A stretch of DNA of 64,000 bases from Nocardioides mangrovi (GTDB lineage: Bacteria > Actinomycetota > Actinomycetes > Propionibacteriales > Nocardioidaceae), in assembly GCF_020073815.1 (NCBI RefSeq), contig NZ_JAIQZJ010000001.1, positions 1 to 64,000 of the forward strand, in the 5' to 3' direction. The first letter of the stretch is position 1; each line of letters starts with the position of its first letter. Positions 27,875-45,802 of this stretch are shown in pieces. The notes under the pieces were generated by a model that was not told the DNA's origin, did not search any database, and saw nothing but the letters and a program-made list of their open reading frames with translations. Made by a program: the position numbers and the translations under genes.

Positions 27875-28489
27875 GTGCCGCAGGGACAGCCGACCCTCGT
27901 CCCCGACGACGGCCTGACCACCGCCCAGCGCCGGCGCCTGCCGCTGCTGATGGTCCACACCGGCGACGGCAAGGGAAAGTCCAGCGCCGCCTTCGGCCTC
28001 GCCATCCGCGCCTGGAACCAGGGCTGGGACATCGGGGTCTTCCAGTTCGTGAAGTCCGCGAAGTGGCGCATCGGCGAGCAGACCGTGCTCGAGCGCCTCG
28101 GCGAGCTGCACGACCAGACCGGCGAGGGCGGCGCCGTCGAGTGGCACAAGATGGGCGCTGGCTGGTCCTGGTCGCGCAAGGCCGGGGAGGCCGAGGACCA
28201 CGCGCGCGACGCCGCCGAGGGCTGGGCCGAGGTCAAGCGCCGGATCGCCGAGGAGCGCCACGACCTCTACGTGCTCGACGAGTTCACCTATCCGATGGAG
28301 TGGGGCTGGGTCGACGTCGACGACGTCGTCACGACCCTGCGCGACCGTCCGGGTCGCCAGTTCGTCGTCGTCACCGGCCGGCGAGCCCACCCCGCCCTGG
28401 TCGAGGCGGCCGACCTGGTCACCGAGATGACCAAGGTCAAGCACCAGATGGACCGCGGCCAGAAGGGACAGGCGGGGATCGAGTGGTGA
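27875..28489 (+). CDS. cobO: Cob(I)yrinic acid a,c-diamide adenosyltransferase CobO
   Basis: 204 residues. Transfers the 5'-deoxyadenosyl group of ATP to cobalt. P-loop HTGDGKGKSSAAFG (about 28-41), then VFQFVKSAKWRIGE, DLYVLDEFTYPMEWGW and the terminal KVKHQMDRGQKGQ GIEW-type tail are all standard CobO/BtuR features. GTG at 27875, one base after the bluB stop; its own stop overlaps cobB. Confidence 0.95.
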   Translation: MPQGQPTLVPDDGLTTAQRRRLPLLMVHTGDGKGKSSAAFGLAIRAWNQGWDIGVFQFVKSAKWRIGEQTVLERLGELHDQTGEGGAVEWHKMGAGWSWSRKAGEAEDHARDAAEGWAEVKRRIAEERHDLYVLDEFTYPMEWGWVDVDDVVTTLRDRPGRQFVVVTGRRAHPALVEAADLVTEMTKVKHQMDRGQKGQAGIEW

Positions 28490-29877
28490 GCCTGCCCGGT
28501 GGCCGACTGCCGCGTCTCGTCGTCGCCGCACCCTCGACCGGGCAGGGCAAGACGACGGTCGCCACGGGGTTGATGGCCGCGCTGACCCGTGCCGGTCAGA
28601 CCGTGAGCGGCCACAAGGTCGGGCCGGACTACATCGACCCCGGCTACCACGCCCTGGCCACCGGGCGACCCGGCCGCAACCTCGACCCGCACCTCGTCGG
28701 GACCGACCGCATCGCGCCGCTGCTCCTGCACGGTGCCCGCGGCGCGGACGTCGCGGTCGTCGAGGGCGTGATGGGCCTCTTCGACGGCAAGGTCGGGGGC
28801 GAGGGCTTCGCCTCCACCGCGCACGTCGCCACGCTGACGCGGTCGCCGATCGTGCTGGTCGTCGACATCTCCAGGTCCTCGCGCACCATCGGCGCGGTCG
28901 TCCACGGCCTGGCCACGTGGGACCCCGACGTCCGGATCGCCGGGGTCGTCCTCAACCAGGCCGGCTCGCCGCGGCACGCCCGCGAGGCCGCCGACGCGAT
29001 CGACCTGCCGGTGCTCGGCGTGCTCGGTCGCGACCCGGCCCTCGGCGTACCGTCCCGGCACCTCGGGCTGGTCCCGGCCGCCGAGCGGGACGAGGCACGG
29101 CACACCCTCGACGCCCTCGCGACCCGGATCGCCGAGCAGGTCGACCTGGACGCCGTGCTCGCCGTCGCCGCGATCGCGCCCGACCTCGAGGTGGCGGCGT
29201 GGGATCCCGAGGTCGCCCTGGCGGGTGCCGGGGTTTCGAGGCTCAGGCGCCAGGGCGCCTTCGCGCCTCAACCGCCGGAGGTGCCGGTGGTGGCGATGGC
29301 AGGTGGGCGGGCGTTCACGTTCCGGTACGCCGAGACGGAGGAGCTGCTCCGGGCGGCCGGGTGCGAGGTGGTCGGGTTCGACCCGCTGGTCGACCCGCAC
29401 CTGCCCGACGGGACCGCGGGCATCTACCTCGGCGGGGGCTTCCCCGAGGTCCATGCCCGCGAGCTCACCGACAACGTGGTGCTCCGGCGCGAGCTGGCGG
29501 CGGCGCTCGCGGACGGCGTCCCGACCGTGGCCGAGTGCGCCGGGCTGCTCTACCTCTGCGACTCACTGGACTCCTCCCCGATGGTCGGCGCGATCGCGGC
29601 GCGGGCCGCGATGAGCGAGCGGTTGACCCTGCGCTACCCGACGATGACCGCGGCCACCGACAACCTGCTGACCCGCTGTGGAGAAGAGGTCACCGGGCAC
29701 GAGTTCCACCGCACCCACGTCACCCCGGAGGCCGCCGGCCGCCCGGCCTGGACGGTCGACGGGGCCGAGGTGGGCTTCGCGAGCGAGACGCTGCACGCGT
29801 CGTACCTGCACACCCACTGGGCCGGCCACCCGCAGCTCGCGGCCCGCTTCGCCGAGGCGGTGCACGCCCGTGGCTGA
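28486..29877 (+). CDS. cobB: Cobyrinate a,c-diamide synthase CobB, with in-frame palindromic repeat insertion
   Basis: 463 residues. Glutamine-dependent amidation of the a and c side chains of (hydrogeno)cobyrinate. N-terminal dethiobiotin-synthetase-like ATPase domain (APSTGQGKTTVATGL, about 11-25; KVGPDYIDPGYH) and C-terminal glutaminase-like domain with the triad Cys in TVAECAGLLYL (about 352) and a late His (ASYLHTHWAGHP). Between the domains, residues about 248-264 (GVSRLRRQGAFAPQP) are encoded by the palindromic element found elsewhere only in intergenic DNA. The frame is kept and both domains are intact. GTG overlaps cobO. Confidence 0.95.
   Translation: MSLPGGRLPRLVVAAPSTGQGKTTVATGLMAALTRAGQTVSGHKVGPDYIDPGYHALATGRPGRNLDPHLVGTDRIAPLLLHGARGADVAVVEGVMGLFDGKVGGEGFASTAHVATLTRSPIVLVVDISRSSRTIGAVVHGLATWDPDVRIAGVVLNQAGSPRHAREAADAIDLPVLGVLGRDPALGVPSRHLGLVPAAERDEARHTLDALATRIAEQVDLDAVLAVAAIAPDLEVAAWDPEVALAGAGVSRLRRQGAFAPQPPEVPVVAMAGGRAFTFRYAETEELLRAAGCEVVGFDPLVDPHLPDGTAGIYLGGGFPEVHARELTDNVVLRRELAAALADGVPTVAECAGLLYLCDSLDSSPMVGAIAARAAMSERLTLRYPTMTAATDNLLTRCGEEVTGHEFHRTHVTPEAAGRPAWTVDGAEVGFASETLHASYLHTHWAGHPQLAARFAEAVHARG
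29229..29273 (+). repeat. Palindromic repeat core inside cobB
   Basis: GGTTTCGAGGC (29232-29242) and GCCTCAACC (29265-29273) form the outer arms; AGGCGCC...GGCGCCTT forms an inner stem. The sequence matches copies at 323-362 and 45757-45798, including the CCGGGGTTTCGAGGCTC left end. It is a multiple of three in effect, since cobB stays open, and it falls in the linker between the two CobB domains. Confidence 0.85.
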
Positions 29878-41900: not shown

Positions 41901-42488
41901 GGGCGCGGCGCGCAGGCTGCCCGCGAAGACCGGTACGCCGACCGCCTCACCGGTCGCATCGATCGCATCGCAGAGCGCGTGCGCGAAGGCGTGGTTGCCG
42001 CTGATCTCGTGGGCGCGGTAGTAGAGGACGCCCACTCGGGGAAGCTCGCCGGTCGAGGAGGACGCGCCAGCCATGCCCCACTGCGGCAGGGTCACGGGCG
42101 GGTCGAAGCCCTCACCTGTCAGCAGGACCGTGTCCGAGAGGAAGGCGTGCAGCTGGGCGAGGTTGGCCGGCCCGCCCTCGGCGAGGTAGCGGTGCGCCTC
42201 GGCCGCCGTACCGACCGGGACGCTGGAGAGCTCCATCAGCCGGGCGTCGGGCTGCTGCTCGCCCCCGAGCACCACGACCGGCATCCCGGTCTCCCGGATC
42301 CGGGTGAAGCCCGAGCAGAGGTCCTCCGGAGAGCCGAGGATCCGGCCGACGACGAGGTCGCACCCCTCGATGATCTCGGCCATGGACTGGTGCCCCGGCC
42401 GGGACGGATTGGCGACCACGTAGTCGGCGCCGCTGGCGCGTGCCGAGAGCAGGTCGGTGTCAGAGGTGGAGAGCAGCGCGATGCGCAC
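38910..42488 (-). CDS. cobN: Cobaltochelatase subunit CobN
   Basis: 1192 residues, the large porphyrin-binding subunit that inserts cobalt into hydrogenobyrinate a,c-diamide, related to ChlH. Recognisable segments: VVLSAYPTKHARIGNAVGLDTP (about 330), AVVHLGKHGSLEWLPGK with the conserved His (about 500), GTSAMRTSGDDVAEVLALLGV, ISGFFRDAFPHVV and the C-terminal DETNRDFMTRSNPWALRGIVERL. GTG 42488 has GAGGAGGA upstream. First gene of the minus-strand operon under riboswitch 4; partner ATPase is the ChlI/D fusion at 25268-27250. Confidence 0.96.
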   Translation of the reverse strand: MRIALLSTSDTDLLSARASGADYVVANPSRPGHQSMAEIIEGCDLVVGRILGSPEDLCSGFTRIRETGMPVVVLGGEQQPDARLMELSSVPVGTAAEAHRYLAEGGPANLAQLHAFLSDTVLLTGEGFDPPVTLPQWGMAGASSSTGELPRVGVLYYRAHEISGNHAFAHALCDAIDATGEAVGVPVFAGSLRAAPDELYDALGTLDALVVTVLAAGGSVPAGASAGEDDEAWDVERMAALDIPVLQGLCLTSSRAEWEASDDGVSPLDSATQIAIPEFDGRVITAPFSFKEIDADGLPHYVADPERSARVARIAVNHARLRHVDNADKRIALVLSAYPTKHARIGNAVGLDTPVSAIRLLRRMREEGYDVGGLPMLDLPDDTEAGDALIHALIDAGGQDEEWLTDAHLTEAHVRITAEQYAAWTADLPAALRDAMTEAWGAAPGKLFVNDSNELVLATLRAGNVVILIQPPRGFGENPVAIYHDPDLAPSHHYLGAYRWLEHGFGAHAVVHLGKHGSLEWLPGKNAALSASCGTDAALGSLPLIYPFLVNDPGEGAQAKRRAHATIVDHLVPPMARAEAYGDIARLEQLLDEHANIAAMDPAKLPAVRGEIWQLMHAAEMHRDLGLDERPEDDDFDDFLLHVDGWLCEIKDAQIRDGLHVLGAPPEGEARVNLVLAILRATQVWGGVGNAVPGLRAALGLKDGEALSAVDEIEQQARELVHRMEAADWDPAAAEAVHDDPEVQRVLRFAAEQVVPRLRRTTDEMGMVLHALDGGFVPAGPSGSPLRGLVNVLPTGRNFYTVDPRAVPSRLAWETGQAMADSLLQRYLEETGDYPSSVGLSVWGTSAMRTSGDDVAEVLALLGVRPEWDEMSRRVSDLRVVPLDELGRPRIDVTVRISGFFRDAFPHVVAMLDDAVQLVAALDEPDDANYVRAHTAADLAEHGDARRATTRIFGSKPGSYGAGILQAIESGSWRDDADLAEVYTAWGGFAYGRGLDGAPAADDMRSAYRRIKVAAKNVDSREHDIADSDDYFQYHGGMVATVRALTGADPKAYVGDSTSPDAIRTRTLSEETARVFRARVVNPRWIGAMQRHGYKGAFELAATVDYLYGFDATAGVVHDWMYESLAKEYVLDETNRDFMTRSNPWALRGIVERLHEAADRGLWESPDPDIMAAMQQVYLDLEGELEDRTPRG

Positions 42489-44208: not shown

Positions 44209-45459
44209 CTATTGGCGTCGGTGGAAGGTGACCGATCCGCTGGGGTGGTGGTTCATGTCGTAGCCGGTGTCGTGGGCTCTCATGTGGTGCCAGTGGCACA
44301 GCCCGATGGCGTTGGCGAGGTCGGTGGGTCCGCCCTTGGACCACTCGACGACGTGGTGAGCGTGCAGGCCGTTCGTGCGGTCGCAGCCCTCGGTCGCGCA
44401 CTGGCCCTGCTGCTTGATGGCGATCGCGATGCGTTGGGCCTTGGAGTGCAGCCGTTGCTCGCGGCCCAGGTCCAACACTTCGGACTTGCCGTTCATGACC
44501 ACGGGGAGGATCCCGGCCTCGCACGCCAGCTGCCGGGCGAGCGCGGGGCTGATGCGGTCGCCGGTGTCGAGGATGGTCCCGGACTGCTCGAGCCGCCCCA
44601 GCAGCGACTCCTCGGAGATGGTCACGAGGAGCGTGGCGTTGAGGCCGCCGAGCTTGGGGAGCTTGTTCTTCGGGAACCGCATCAGGAGCTCGTAGAACGC
44701 CTGCCCCTGAGCCTCGGGACCCGTGCTGTCGGCGGTCAGGTGGCCGGTGCCGGCGCCCTTGGTGGCGTTCTGGTGCTTGGCGGCCATCACCGCGGCCAGG
44801 ATCTTCCGCAACGCGGCGCCGCCGAGGTGCGGCATCTTGAATGCCCCACAGGTGGAGCCGTCGCCGTCGTCCCAGACCTTGAGGTACATCGCCCGCGCTG
44901 CGGCCTGTTCCTGGCGTTCGAGGATCTCGGCCTCGCGGGCGTCGGCGCCATCGGGGTCGATGACCTCCCAGAGTCGCTTCCCGAGCCGGTTGAGCGCTTT
45001 GGCGTCGTGCTCGGCCGCGAGATCGAGCAGGTGCCGCTCCGCCGTGTCGTGGTGCTCGTCGGGGATGGTGTCGACCCAGCGGAGGATCACCGCCGCCTGC
45101 TCGGGACAGATCACGGCGGCCGCGAGTGCCTCACGGGTGAGGGGGTGACGCTGCAGGTCCTGGCCGAGCCTCACCATCCGGTGCATCGCCGGGCGGGTCT
45201 GCTTCGTCTCGTGCGCGAGCCAGGCCGCGGTCGAGGCGGCTCCGCGGTCCTGGCCGACCTGCTGCTCGTCGGCATGCGCGGCCACGCGGCCCTTGAGCTC
45301 GGTGACCTGGGCCTCGAGACGGGTGAGCTCGACGAGGGCGTCGCCGGCTTCGGTGTCGCTCATCGACCAGACCGGAGTGTCCGCGATCGAGGTCAGATCA
45401 TGGCGGGCGTGCGCGACCGCCACCGACACTCGGTGGGTGGGAGTCGCGGTCGTTGCCAT
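44209..45459 (-). CDS. DUF222 / HNH endonuclease protein (13E12 repeat family)
   Basis: 416 residues. DUF222 domain (about 30-340) then a C-terminal HNH nuclease: CATEGCDRTNGLHAHHVVEW (about 360-379), Asn in ANAIGLCHWHH and the zinc-type Cys pair. The family is present in many copies in actinobacterial genomes (REP13E12 in mycobacteria); its biology is poorly known. ATG 45459 starts MATTATPTHRVS; a weak GTGAAG precedes it. The 20-bp box 27 nt upstream is the same as at 126-145, and palindromic repeats lie behind it. Confidence 0.9.
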   Translation of the reverse strand: MATTATPTHRVSVAVAHARHDLTSIADTPVWSMSDTEAGDALVELTRLEAQVTELKGRVAAHADEQQVGQDRGAASTAAWLAHETKQTRPAMHRMVRLGQDLQRHPLTREALAAAVICPEQAAVILRWVDTIPDEHHDTAERHLLDLAAEHDAKALNRLGKRLWEVIDPDGADAREAEILERQEQAAARAMYLKVWDDGDGSTCGAFKMPHLGGAALRKILAAVMAAKHQNATKGAGTGHLTADSTGPEAQGQAFYELLMRFPKNKLPKLGGLNATLLVTISEESLLGRLEQSGTILDTGDRISPALARQLACEAGILPVVMNGKSEVLDLGREQRLHSKAQRIAIAIKQQGQCATEGCDRTNGLHAHHVVEWSKGGPTDLANAIGLCHWHHMRAHDTGYDMNHHPSGSVTFHRRQ

Positions 45460-45575: not shown

Positions 45576-45621
45576 GGTGGTTTCGAGGCTCGTCGCTGGC
45601 GCTCCTCACACCTCAACCACC
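45576..45621 (+). repeat. Palindromic repeat core, complete copy
   Basis: GGTGGTTTCGAGGCTC at the left and CCTCAACCACC at the right, with GGTGGTT/AACCACC as the terminal arms. Same orientation as the copies at 323, 29232 and 45757. It lies in the 350-nt gap between the HNH and LysR genes; that gap holds only this repeat, the 20-bp box and the 156-bp unit. Confidence 0.8.
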
Positions 45622-45646: not shown

Positions 45647-45802
45647 GCCTGCTTCGACCGCAGGTCGGCGTCGTCCCGATAGGTGCGAACACTGGCGCCG
45701 ACGGGAGGACGCCAACAGTCGGATCCCAGGACACCAGGCGCTAGTTGGCCTTCCGGGGTTTCGAGGCTCAGGCGCCAGAGCGCCTTCGCACCTCAACCAG
45801 CG
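45647..45802 (+). repeat. 156-bp interspersed repeat unit, copy B
   Basis: Near-identical to 211-366 from GCCTGCT through CCTCAACCAGCG. Contains the imperfect GGCGTCGTCCCG/CGGGAGGACGCC inverted repeat and the palindromic core (45757-45798). Ends 7 nt before the LysR stop, so it may provide that gene's terminator. Confidence 0.8.

Follow-up and report, generated by a model that had tools for sequence, protein, structure and literature searches.

A dispersed palindromic repeat in the CobB linker of Nocardioides mangrovi: a probable in-frame insertion at a site occupied repeatedly across the genus

The gene cobB of Nocardioides mangrovi contains, in the linker between its two domains, a short palindrome that recurs in the DNA between genes, which raises the question of whether this segment is an old part of the protein or a repeat that landed in the gene with the reading frame kept. 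The window analyzed here is a stretch of 64,000 nucleotides from this genome (G000; 5.04 Mb in 38 contigs), in which cobB occupies positions 28486 to 29877 of the forward strand. Its open reading frame and Pfam matches define an N-terminal CbiA domain (residues 11-192), a linker and a C-terminal GATase_3 domain (residues 286-448), and identify the product as a CobB/CbiA-type enzyme of cobalamin synthesis, presumably an amidating one. The palindromic element lies at 29232-29273 on the forward strand and comprises 42 bp, or 14 codons, running in frame from GGTTTCGAGG to GCCTCAACC; as a palindrome it is imperfect, with the ends GGTTTCGAGG...CCTCAACC. A sequence-only reading of the same DNA had described 45 bp at 29229-29273 with an open frame. 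The open frame stands, but the extent has to be adjusted to 42 bp for the palindrome and to 29230-29274 for the coding of the insert plus its neighbours, read as GVSRLRRQGAFAPQP (residues 249-263). One tryptic peptide predicted to span the insert is QGAFAPQPPEVPVVAMAGGR. An AlphaFold model of CobB presents two confident domains (mean pLDDT 89, pTM 0.90), and the stretches of at least three residues with a pLDDT below 50 are residues 1-5, 189-196 and 254-262, the last of them inside the insert. Given this low-pLDDT linker between confident domains, the insert sits at a place to which the modelled fold appears indifferent. A sequence search of the PDB returned no CobB relatives at E 0.001.

The identity of the repeat is borne out by a scan of the window, in which the core GGTTTCGAGGCTC occurs exactly at 323, 29232, 45579 and 45757. 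A gapped pattern combining both repeat ends recovers the three intergenic copies, with none expected from 100 shuffles, and the cobB copy escapes this pattern owing to a 3' half of the sequence GCGCCTCAACC. The intergenic copies, all on the forward strand, belong to a 40-bp class (323-362, from the pattern search, and 45579-45618) and a 42-bp class (45757-45798); the latter two lie upstream of a gene for a DUF222 and HNH endonuclease protein, the nearer at a distance of 120 bp, and both point outward. At gathering thresholds, Rfam finds nothing at the palindromes of the window; it does annotate three cobalamin riboswitches (RF00174; 19880-20076, 25083-25223 and 42523-42650) near cob genes and one tRNA.

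Throughout the genome, GTTTCGAGGCTC is present in 54 exact copies (reversed control: 0), and a sequence model built on these copies recognizes at least 81 places at E ≤0.01, a lower bound that stems from scoring 150 first-look candidates. This genome-wide count of the core in coding and non-coding DNA had been proposed as a check by the sequence-only reading, and it places the core far beyond cobB. When codon usage was tested in the 150 bp on either side, 2 of the 54 exact copies were called coding, namely the one in cobB and one in a CydDC-like fusion gene; no such call was made for any of the 27 additional places recognized by the model. The description of the element as otherwise intergenic is therefore nearly right: it agrees with the 52 exact copies not called coding and fails for the CydDC-like fusion. 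Among the other 53 exact-core copies, the nearest to the cobB copy (locus L246 on contig C17) differs at 1 of 42 positions, and the window copy at 45757-45798 is one of five others with differences at 2 of 42. The cobB copy and eight others of the 54 have no flank in common with any copy. Inverted pairs, five in all and with a distance of 62-79 bp between their cores, were found at loci L239, L241, L250 (two) and L259, and the family displays the traits of REP-like sequences: small palindromes, many copies, a mostly intergenic location and inverted pairs. Copies are also seen near the ends of contigs C3, C4, C7, C8, C15, C20 and C38, a location that would follow if the assembly had been interrupted at longer units of nearly identical sequence.

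The letters of the repeat predict a hairpin whose main form is imperfect. RNAalifold applied to all 54 copies returns only four outer pairs as a result of their unequal lengths, and covariation was consequently counted on the 40-bp class (35 copies, 15 of them distinct). Eight outer pairs are invariant in this class and are uninformative either way. Two inner-stem pairs vary on both sides with pairing retained, a number that is not above that of shuffled alignments (reached by 424 of 500). The number of cells with such changes and the covariation score were reached by 2 of 500 shuffles, and this signal is lost in slid versions of the alignment. In the most frequent inner version two pairs are disrupted, and the variants GGCGC/GCGCC, GGGCC/GGCCC and GGCCC/GGGCC present a recurring stem in different letters.

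Whether the segment was inserted into cobB can be judged from relatives with and without it. Measured from a conserved W to GGRAFTF, the linker spans 105 nt in N. mangrovi vs. 63 nt in the genomes G059 and G139, and the excess of 42 nt equals the length of the palindrome. G059 and G139 fall within the supported clade of nine rows that contains the N. mangrovi CobB (SH-aLRT 99); they represent different species, so that the empty linker is compared between species. Relative to G059, likewise another species, the excess equals the palindrome alone and would leave no space for a target-site duplication of the kind that accompanies a MITE. The CobBs of 30 other named loci, mostly from other actinobacterial genera, show variable linkers without the insert residues in an alignment inspected by eye. 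An origin by insertion, which the sequence-only reading had put forward together with an alignment of CobB orthologues as its check, is thus well supported as far as sequence comparison reaches, given the deficit of precisely 42 bp in the linkers of G059 and G139.

The opposite view, that the segment is ancestral CobB sequence or a G+C-rich linker resembling the repeat by shared origin or convergence, can draw on the variability of the CobB linker, in both its length and its sequence, among 31 aligned actinobacterial rows. It has to accommodate the 41 of 42 positions shared with a copy that is not called coding, the exact 42-nt difference from G059 and G139, and the frequency of repeat motifs in long linkers across the genus (18 of 50, against a shuffled mean of 0.42), and it is regarded as extremely improbable. 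The preferred explanation, to which a probability of roughly 0.88 is assigned, is that the cobB segment represents one copy of a dispersed, hairpin-forming, REP-like repeat that was inserted into the gene.

Beyond this single gene, the CobB linkers of the genus Nocardioides were compared among 215 genomes, of which 148 have a CobB match and 138 yielded a parsed linker. Eight CobBs with partial, weak or unlisted matches (G086, G157, G158, G172, G180, G203, G219 and G222) were not included, the linkers of G124 and G185 could not be parsed, and second CobB copies of G147 and G048 were left out. Long linkers, defined as at least 27 residues from the W by a threshold set after viewing the length distribution, occur in 50 of the 138 CobBs and reach 195 residues; the other 88 are short. 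Superfamily motifs, from a set written after some linkers had been viewed, are found in 18 of the 50 long linkers (50 shuffles: mean 0.42, maximum 3) vs. 1 of the 88 short ones. On a linker-free tree of 137 CobBs (one row was too short), the linker must have switched between the long and the short state at least 17 times, and the motif state at least 15 times; this is a quick tree in which 44 of 134 inner branches are open, and the counts do not separate gain from loss.

The occupants of the linker are diverse. Single units are present in G188, G147, G141 and G054, inverted pairs in G138 and G094, and tandem arrays in G112 (three units) and G130 (five near-identical units). The cobB gene of G130 (L279:3604-5472, minus strand) has the 195-residue linker, with its frame open and both main Pfam domains matched. 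A longer unit ending in TGTGTTGG...CCAACACA is found in G001 (locus L030); the flanks of the G209 linker (L166) closely match those of G001 and lack the unit, representing either an empty site or an excision. Linker elements are used on both strands and in several frames, and the resulting peptides differ by genome (GFEARFARTSTT, VSRL..., VSRLRRQGAFAPQ, VVEVRGAPATSLET and VVEEVAQQPSR). In addition, a second, unrelated palindrome family of 61 bp, GTAGTCCACCGGGAA...CCCGGTGGACTAC, occurs in 9 of the 215 genomes and lies inside cobB in G007 (C23:574319-574379) and G224 (C1:1467773-1467833). The CobB linker is thereby shown, at the level of sequence comparison, to be a recurrent acceptor of more than one palindrome family across the genus, and the phenomenon is wider than the single insertion first proposed: it is genus-wide, involves several families and is tolerated in a linker.

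Some close relatives of N. mangrovi carry other members of the family in the linker, partly in another frame, and these cases bear on a further possibility, namely that one old insertion in the clade was followed by gene conversion, with the copies resident in the respective genome as donors. Such a history would fit the related element of G130, which shares place and frame with that of N. mangrovi, the other subfamilies located within a few codons of this site in G188 and G147, the possible worn remnants in the linkers of G194 and G137, and the position of N. mangrovi within its well-supported clade of nine. Evidence against it is that no remnant of an element is visible in G059 and G139 of this clade, that the frame differs between the N. 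mangrovi and G130 copies and those of G188 and G147, and that the linkers of G007 and G224 are taken up by an unrelated family. Conversion after a single old event, in place of repeated fresh insertions, is considered rather unlikely.

Other genes were examined for comparable copies. The exact copy in the CydDC-like fusion of N. mangrovi lies in a linker that the codon-usage test calls coding; the name of this gene is our assumption, and Pfam matches two ABC transporter domains and one membrane region. It was considered as a second clean insertion and rejected, as no extra length is seen relative to its close relatives among 29 aligned sequences, and because the copy adds no length it is likely to represent a replacement. 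In 220 kb of G130, the pattern of the repeat has 39 hits, 28 between predicted genes and 11 inside them. Of these 11, two seem to fit the pattern by chance within normal coding sequence and nine look genuine: five in cobB, two (inverted) in CobN, one in UvrC and one at the start of a gene for a FAD oxidoreductase/GcvT protein, for which the start codon is uncertain. The UvrC gene (L281:2837-4876) carries a 45-bp palindrome in frame in its RNase H region.

CobN appears, from its linker sequences, to provide a second recurrent insertion site in its N-terminal linker. The copies of G130 lie in the gene at L278:10856-14491, and relatives were compared at L315-L344; the CobN of N. mangrovi lacks most of the G130 segment. 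The sample of 30 loci plus G130 consisted of the best matches to a two-element query, so that carriers are over-represented; 29 of the 31 linkers were parsed (18 to 63 residues; those of G174 and G175 were not), and the family motif is present in 12 of these 29. A few further CobN linkers contain palindromes of the type TAGTCC...GGACTA, as judged by eye. In the CobN linker of N. mangrovi, the sequence GCTGGCGCGTCCTCCTCGACC (window positions 42051-42071, minus strand) resembles the 3' half of a related palindrome and is perhaps a worn remnant.

Since the linkers of CobB and CobN, two proteins of one pathway, are both occupied repeatedly, the inserts might be kept for a function, with the hairpin tuning cobB mRNA or the peptide serving CobB. 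Different families, strands and frames yield unrelated peptides, linkers are short in 88 of 138 CobBs, and uvrC and cydDC are hit as well, which makes retention for function improbable. The alternative favoured here is that the repeats would insert at many sites, with copies in folded or essential coding sequence being lost and copies of permitting length and frame surviving in flexible linkers, which would lead to a build-up in CobB and CobN. Survival would be aided by the G+C-rich composition of the repeat, which offers few stops: the consensus has a stop codon (TGA) in one of six frames, and the cobB copy has stops in two of six.

The wider distribution of the repeat was followed with the pattern GGTTTCGAGRCN{10,40}CTCRACCA, which is found in 136 of 215 genomes of the genus, with up to 437 hits in G130 and none for the control in the rows listed. 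The same pattern occurs in 49 of 196 genomes of the order, representing 6 of 29 genera; these comprise 33 of 47 genomes of the same genus, 10 from the rest of the family and 6 from other families. RAYT transposases are the known movers of GTAG REPs, and a RAYT-type REP moved in the same manner by a Y1 tyrosine transposase would account for the small size of the palindromes, the large number of copies, the five inverted pairs and the mostly non-coding location. A search for the Y1_Tnp domain (PF01797) gave no match in N. mangrovi and matched 1 of the 215 genus genomes, which is 86% complete with 5% contamination; the control search was positive in 5 of 14 known genomes. Inspection of the ends of the 54 aligned copies revealed no GTAG or CGTC tag. 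With PF01797 absent from N. mangrovi and present in a single genome of the genus, a RAYT origin was rejected, and its probability is judged to be very low.

A different candidate for the source of the repeats is offered by the gene next to two of the window copies. This gene (44212-45459, minus strand), found by tblastn, encodes a DUF222 plus HNH endonuclease protein of the 13E12-repeat type and is 81% identical to a copy at L244. Its domains were assigned through this L244 homologue, which matches PF02720 and PF01844 in Pfam, the HNH domain scoring 22.1 against a cut-off of 21.4 bits. Homologues or pieces of such genes are present in 15 of 44 palindrome-bearing sources of the genome, some of which overlap, and at three loci a gene with DUF222 and HNH domains, about 420 codons long, stands between palindromes. 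An outward orientation is found for each of the 30 flanking copies at the 13 gene-bearing loci, 17 of them upstream and 13 downstream. No downstream palindrome was found at three loci with downstream DNA (that of the window, L260 and L264); L246 offers 76 bases downstream, and five loci have little or no upstream DNA.

Four blocks totalling 859,068 bp of the genome contain four DUF222-HNH genes, all of them flanked by palindromes and none unflanked; the blocks were picked to include the window, L249, L255 and L258 with their four flanked genes. Within them, 13 of 27 palindromes lie at most 600 bp from a DUF222-HNH gene, a fraction that is uninformative since known cases guided the choice of blocks, and the absence of unflanked genes is the informative result. 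The 200 kb of contig C14 beyond the window, the one part of these blocks picked blind to such genes, contain no DUF222-HNH genes and one palindrome.

Other copies can be connected to these genes. The copy nearest to the cobB insert, at L246, is an upstream copy of a DUF222-HNH unit, and some solo copies share the flank of such a unit with no gene nearby. One of them is the window copy at 323: its flank at 250-322 matches the upstream flank of a unit, the nearest DUF222-HNH gene in the sampled part of the contig is 43.9 kb away, and the copy would likely be a solo remnant of a unit. In the 220 kb of G130, no DUF222-HNH gene was found, with about one expected at the density sampled in N. mangrovi; the search of viral contigs confirmed none, and plasmids gave five distant matches. 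On the position and orientation of the palindromes in one genome, it is tentatively suggested that they form the ends of a RAYT-free mobile unit around the DUF222-HNH gene, a reading that is considered possible, though less likely than not. The nuclease would perhaps cut at palindromes, with the unit then being copied in during repair, and the solo palindromes, including those in CobB, CobN and UvrC, would represent its non-autonomous offspring. With less certainty than the insertion itself, the copies may thus derive from DUF222-HNH units between outward palindromes and not from a RAYT transposon.

DUF222-HNH genes have precedents in mycobacteria, where they are multi-copy and in M. tuberculosis rank among the most gene-converted loci (PMC10589994; PMC13061034). 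REP13E12/HNH/DUF222 is listed among repetitive elements (PMC10589994), and a preprint describes the REP13E12 regions of M. tuberculosis as ones that "lack defined biological function" (PMC13061034). The genes of N. mangrovi are likewise multi-copy, and the outward palindromes that flank them and are also dispersed alone go beyond these descriptions of REP13E12.

In-frame palindromes are classically known from Rickettsia, in which they lie between and inside genes and the proteins are presumed functional (PMC10969869; PMC3733652). The parallel drawn by the sequence-only reading fits as an analogy, as dispersed palindromes are inserted in frame in coding genes here too, but it does not extend to membership: Rickettsia palindromic elements are about 150 bp long with a conserved encoded peptide in the description given by a review, whereas the units described here measure about 33-45 bp, yield no single peptide and are read in varied frames. 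The host also differs, being a high-G+C actinobacterial genus in which one linker is hit by more than one family. Two of the Rickettsia families, RPE-4 and RPE-6, are equated with short CGTC REPs in PMC3733652.

A closer likeness is found with the GTAG and CGTC REPs (Di Nocera et al., 2013; PMC3733652), which are 20-40 bp long, form inverted pairs and are mostly intergenic, with some copies inside genes, uvr genes among them. Intragenic REPs are listed there for several other species, with many of the hosts being repair genes (uvrA, for example), and recB is hit at about the same site in two Xanthomonas species. The UvrC copy of G130 may be noted beside this list, in which excision-repair genes host intragenic REPs in other bacteria. 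In contrast to the GTAG and CGTC REPs, the present family has no end tag by inspection, nearly lacks RAYT and is found in the same linker genus-wide. The enterobacterial RU elements (Delihas, 2007; PMC2759123) are also small mobile repeats with open frames within genes; at 103-168 bp, MITE-like and enterobacterial, they are set apart by their description.

The statement that such elements were not known in this group holds for the literature searched, in which subscription papers were mostly outside the scope and no report of in-frame palindromes in Nocardioides or Actinobacteria was found. It needs the qualification that in-frame palindromes are known beyond Rickettsia, from several other bacteria (PMC3733652; PMC2759123). 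The text of PMC3733652 contains no mention of Actinobacteria or Nocardioides, and the palindromic repeats reported in one Nocardioides genome paper are CRISPRs (PMC5526307).

The insertion in cobB and its counterparts would extend in-frame palindromic insertion to Nocardioides, where selfish DNA is predicted to have supplied new protein segments. One enzyme linker altered repeatedly across a genus amounts to a natural experiment that shows what the protein tolerates. The near-absence of RAYT and the linkage to DUF222-HNH genes turn two matters into testable questions, namely how REPs without RAYT move and what 13E12 repeats do. If the proposed unit is real, it would represent a new class of REP mobilizer and assign a role to the actinobacterial 13E12 repeats.
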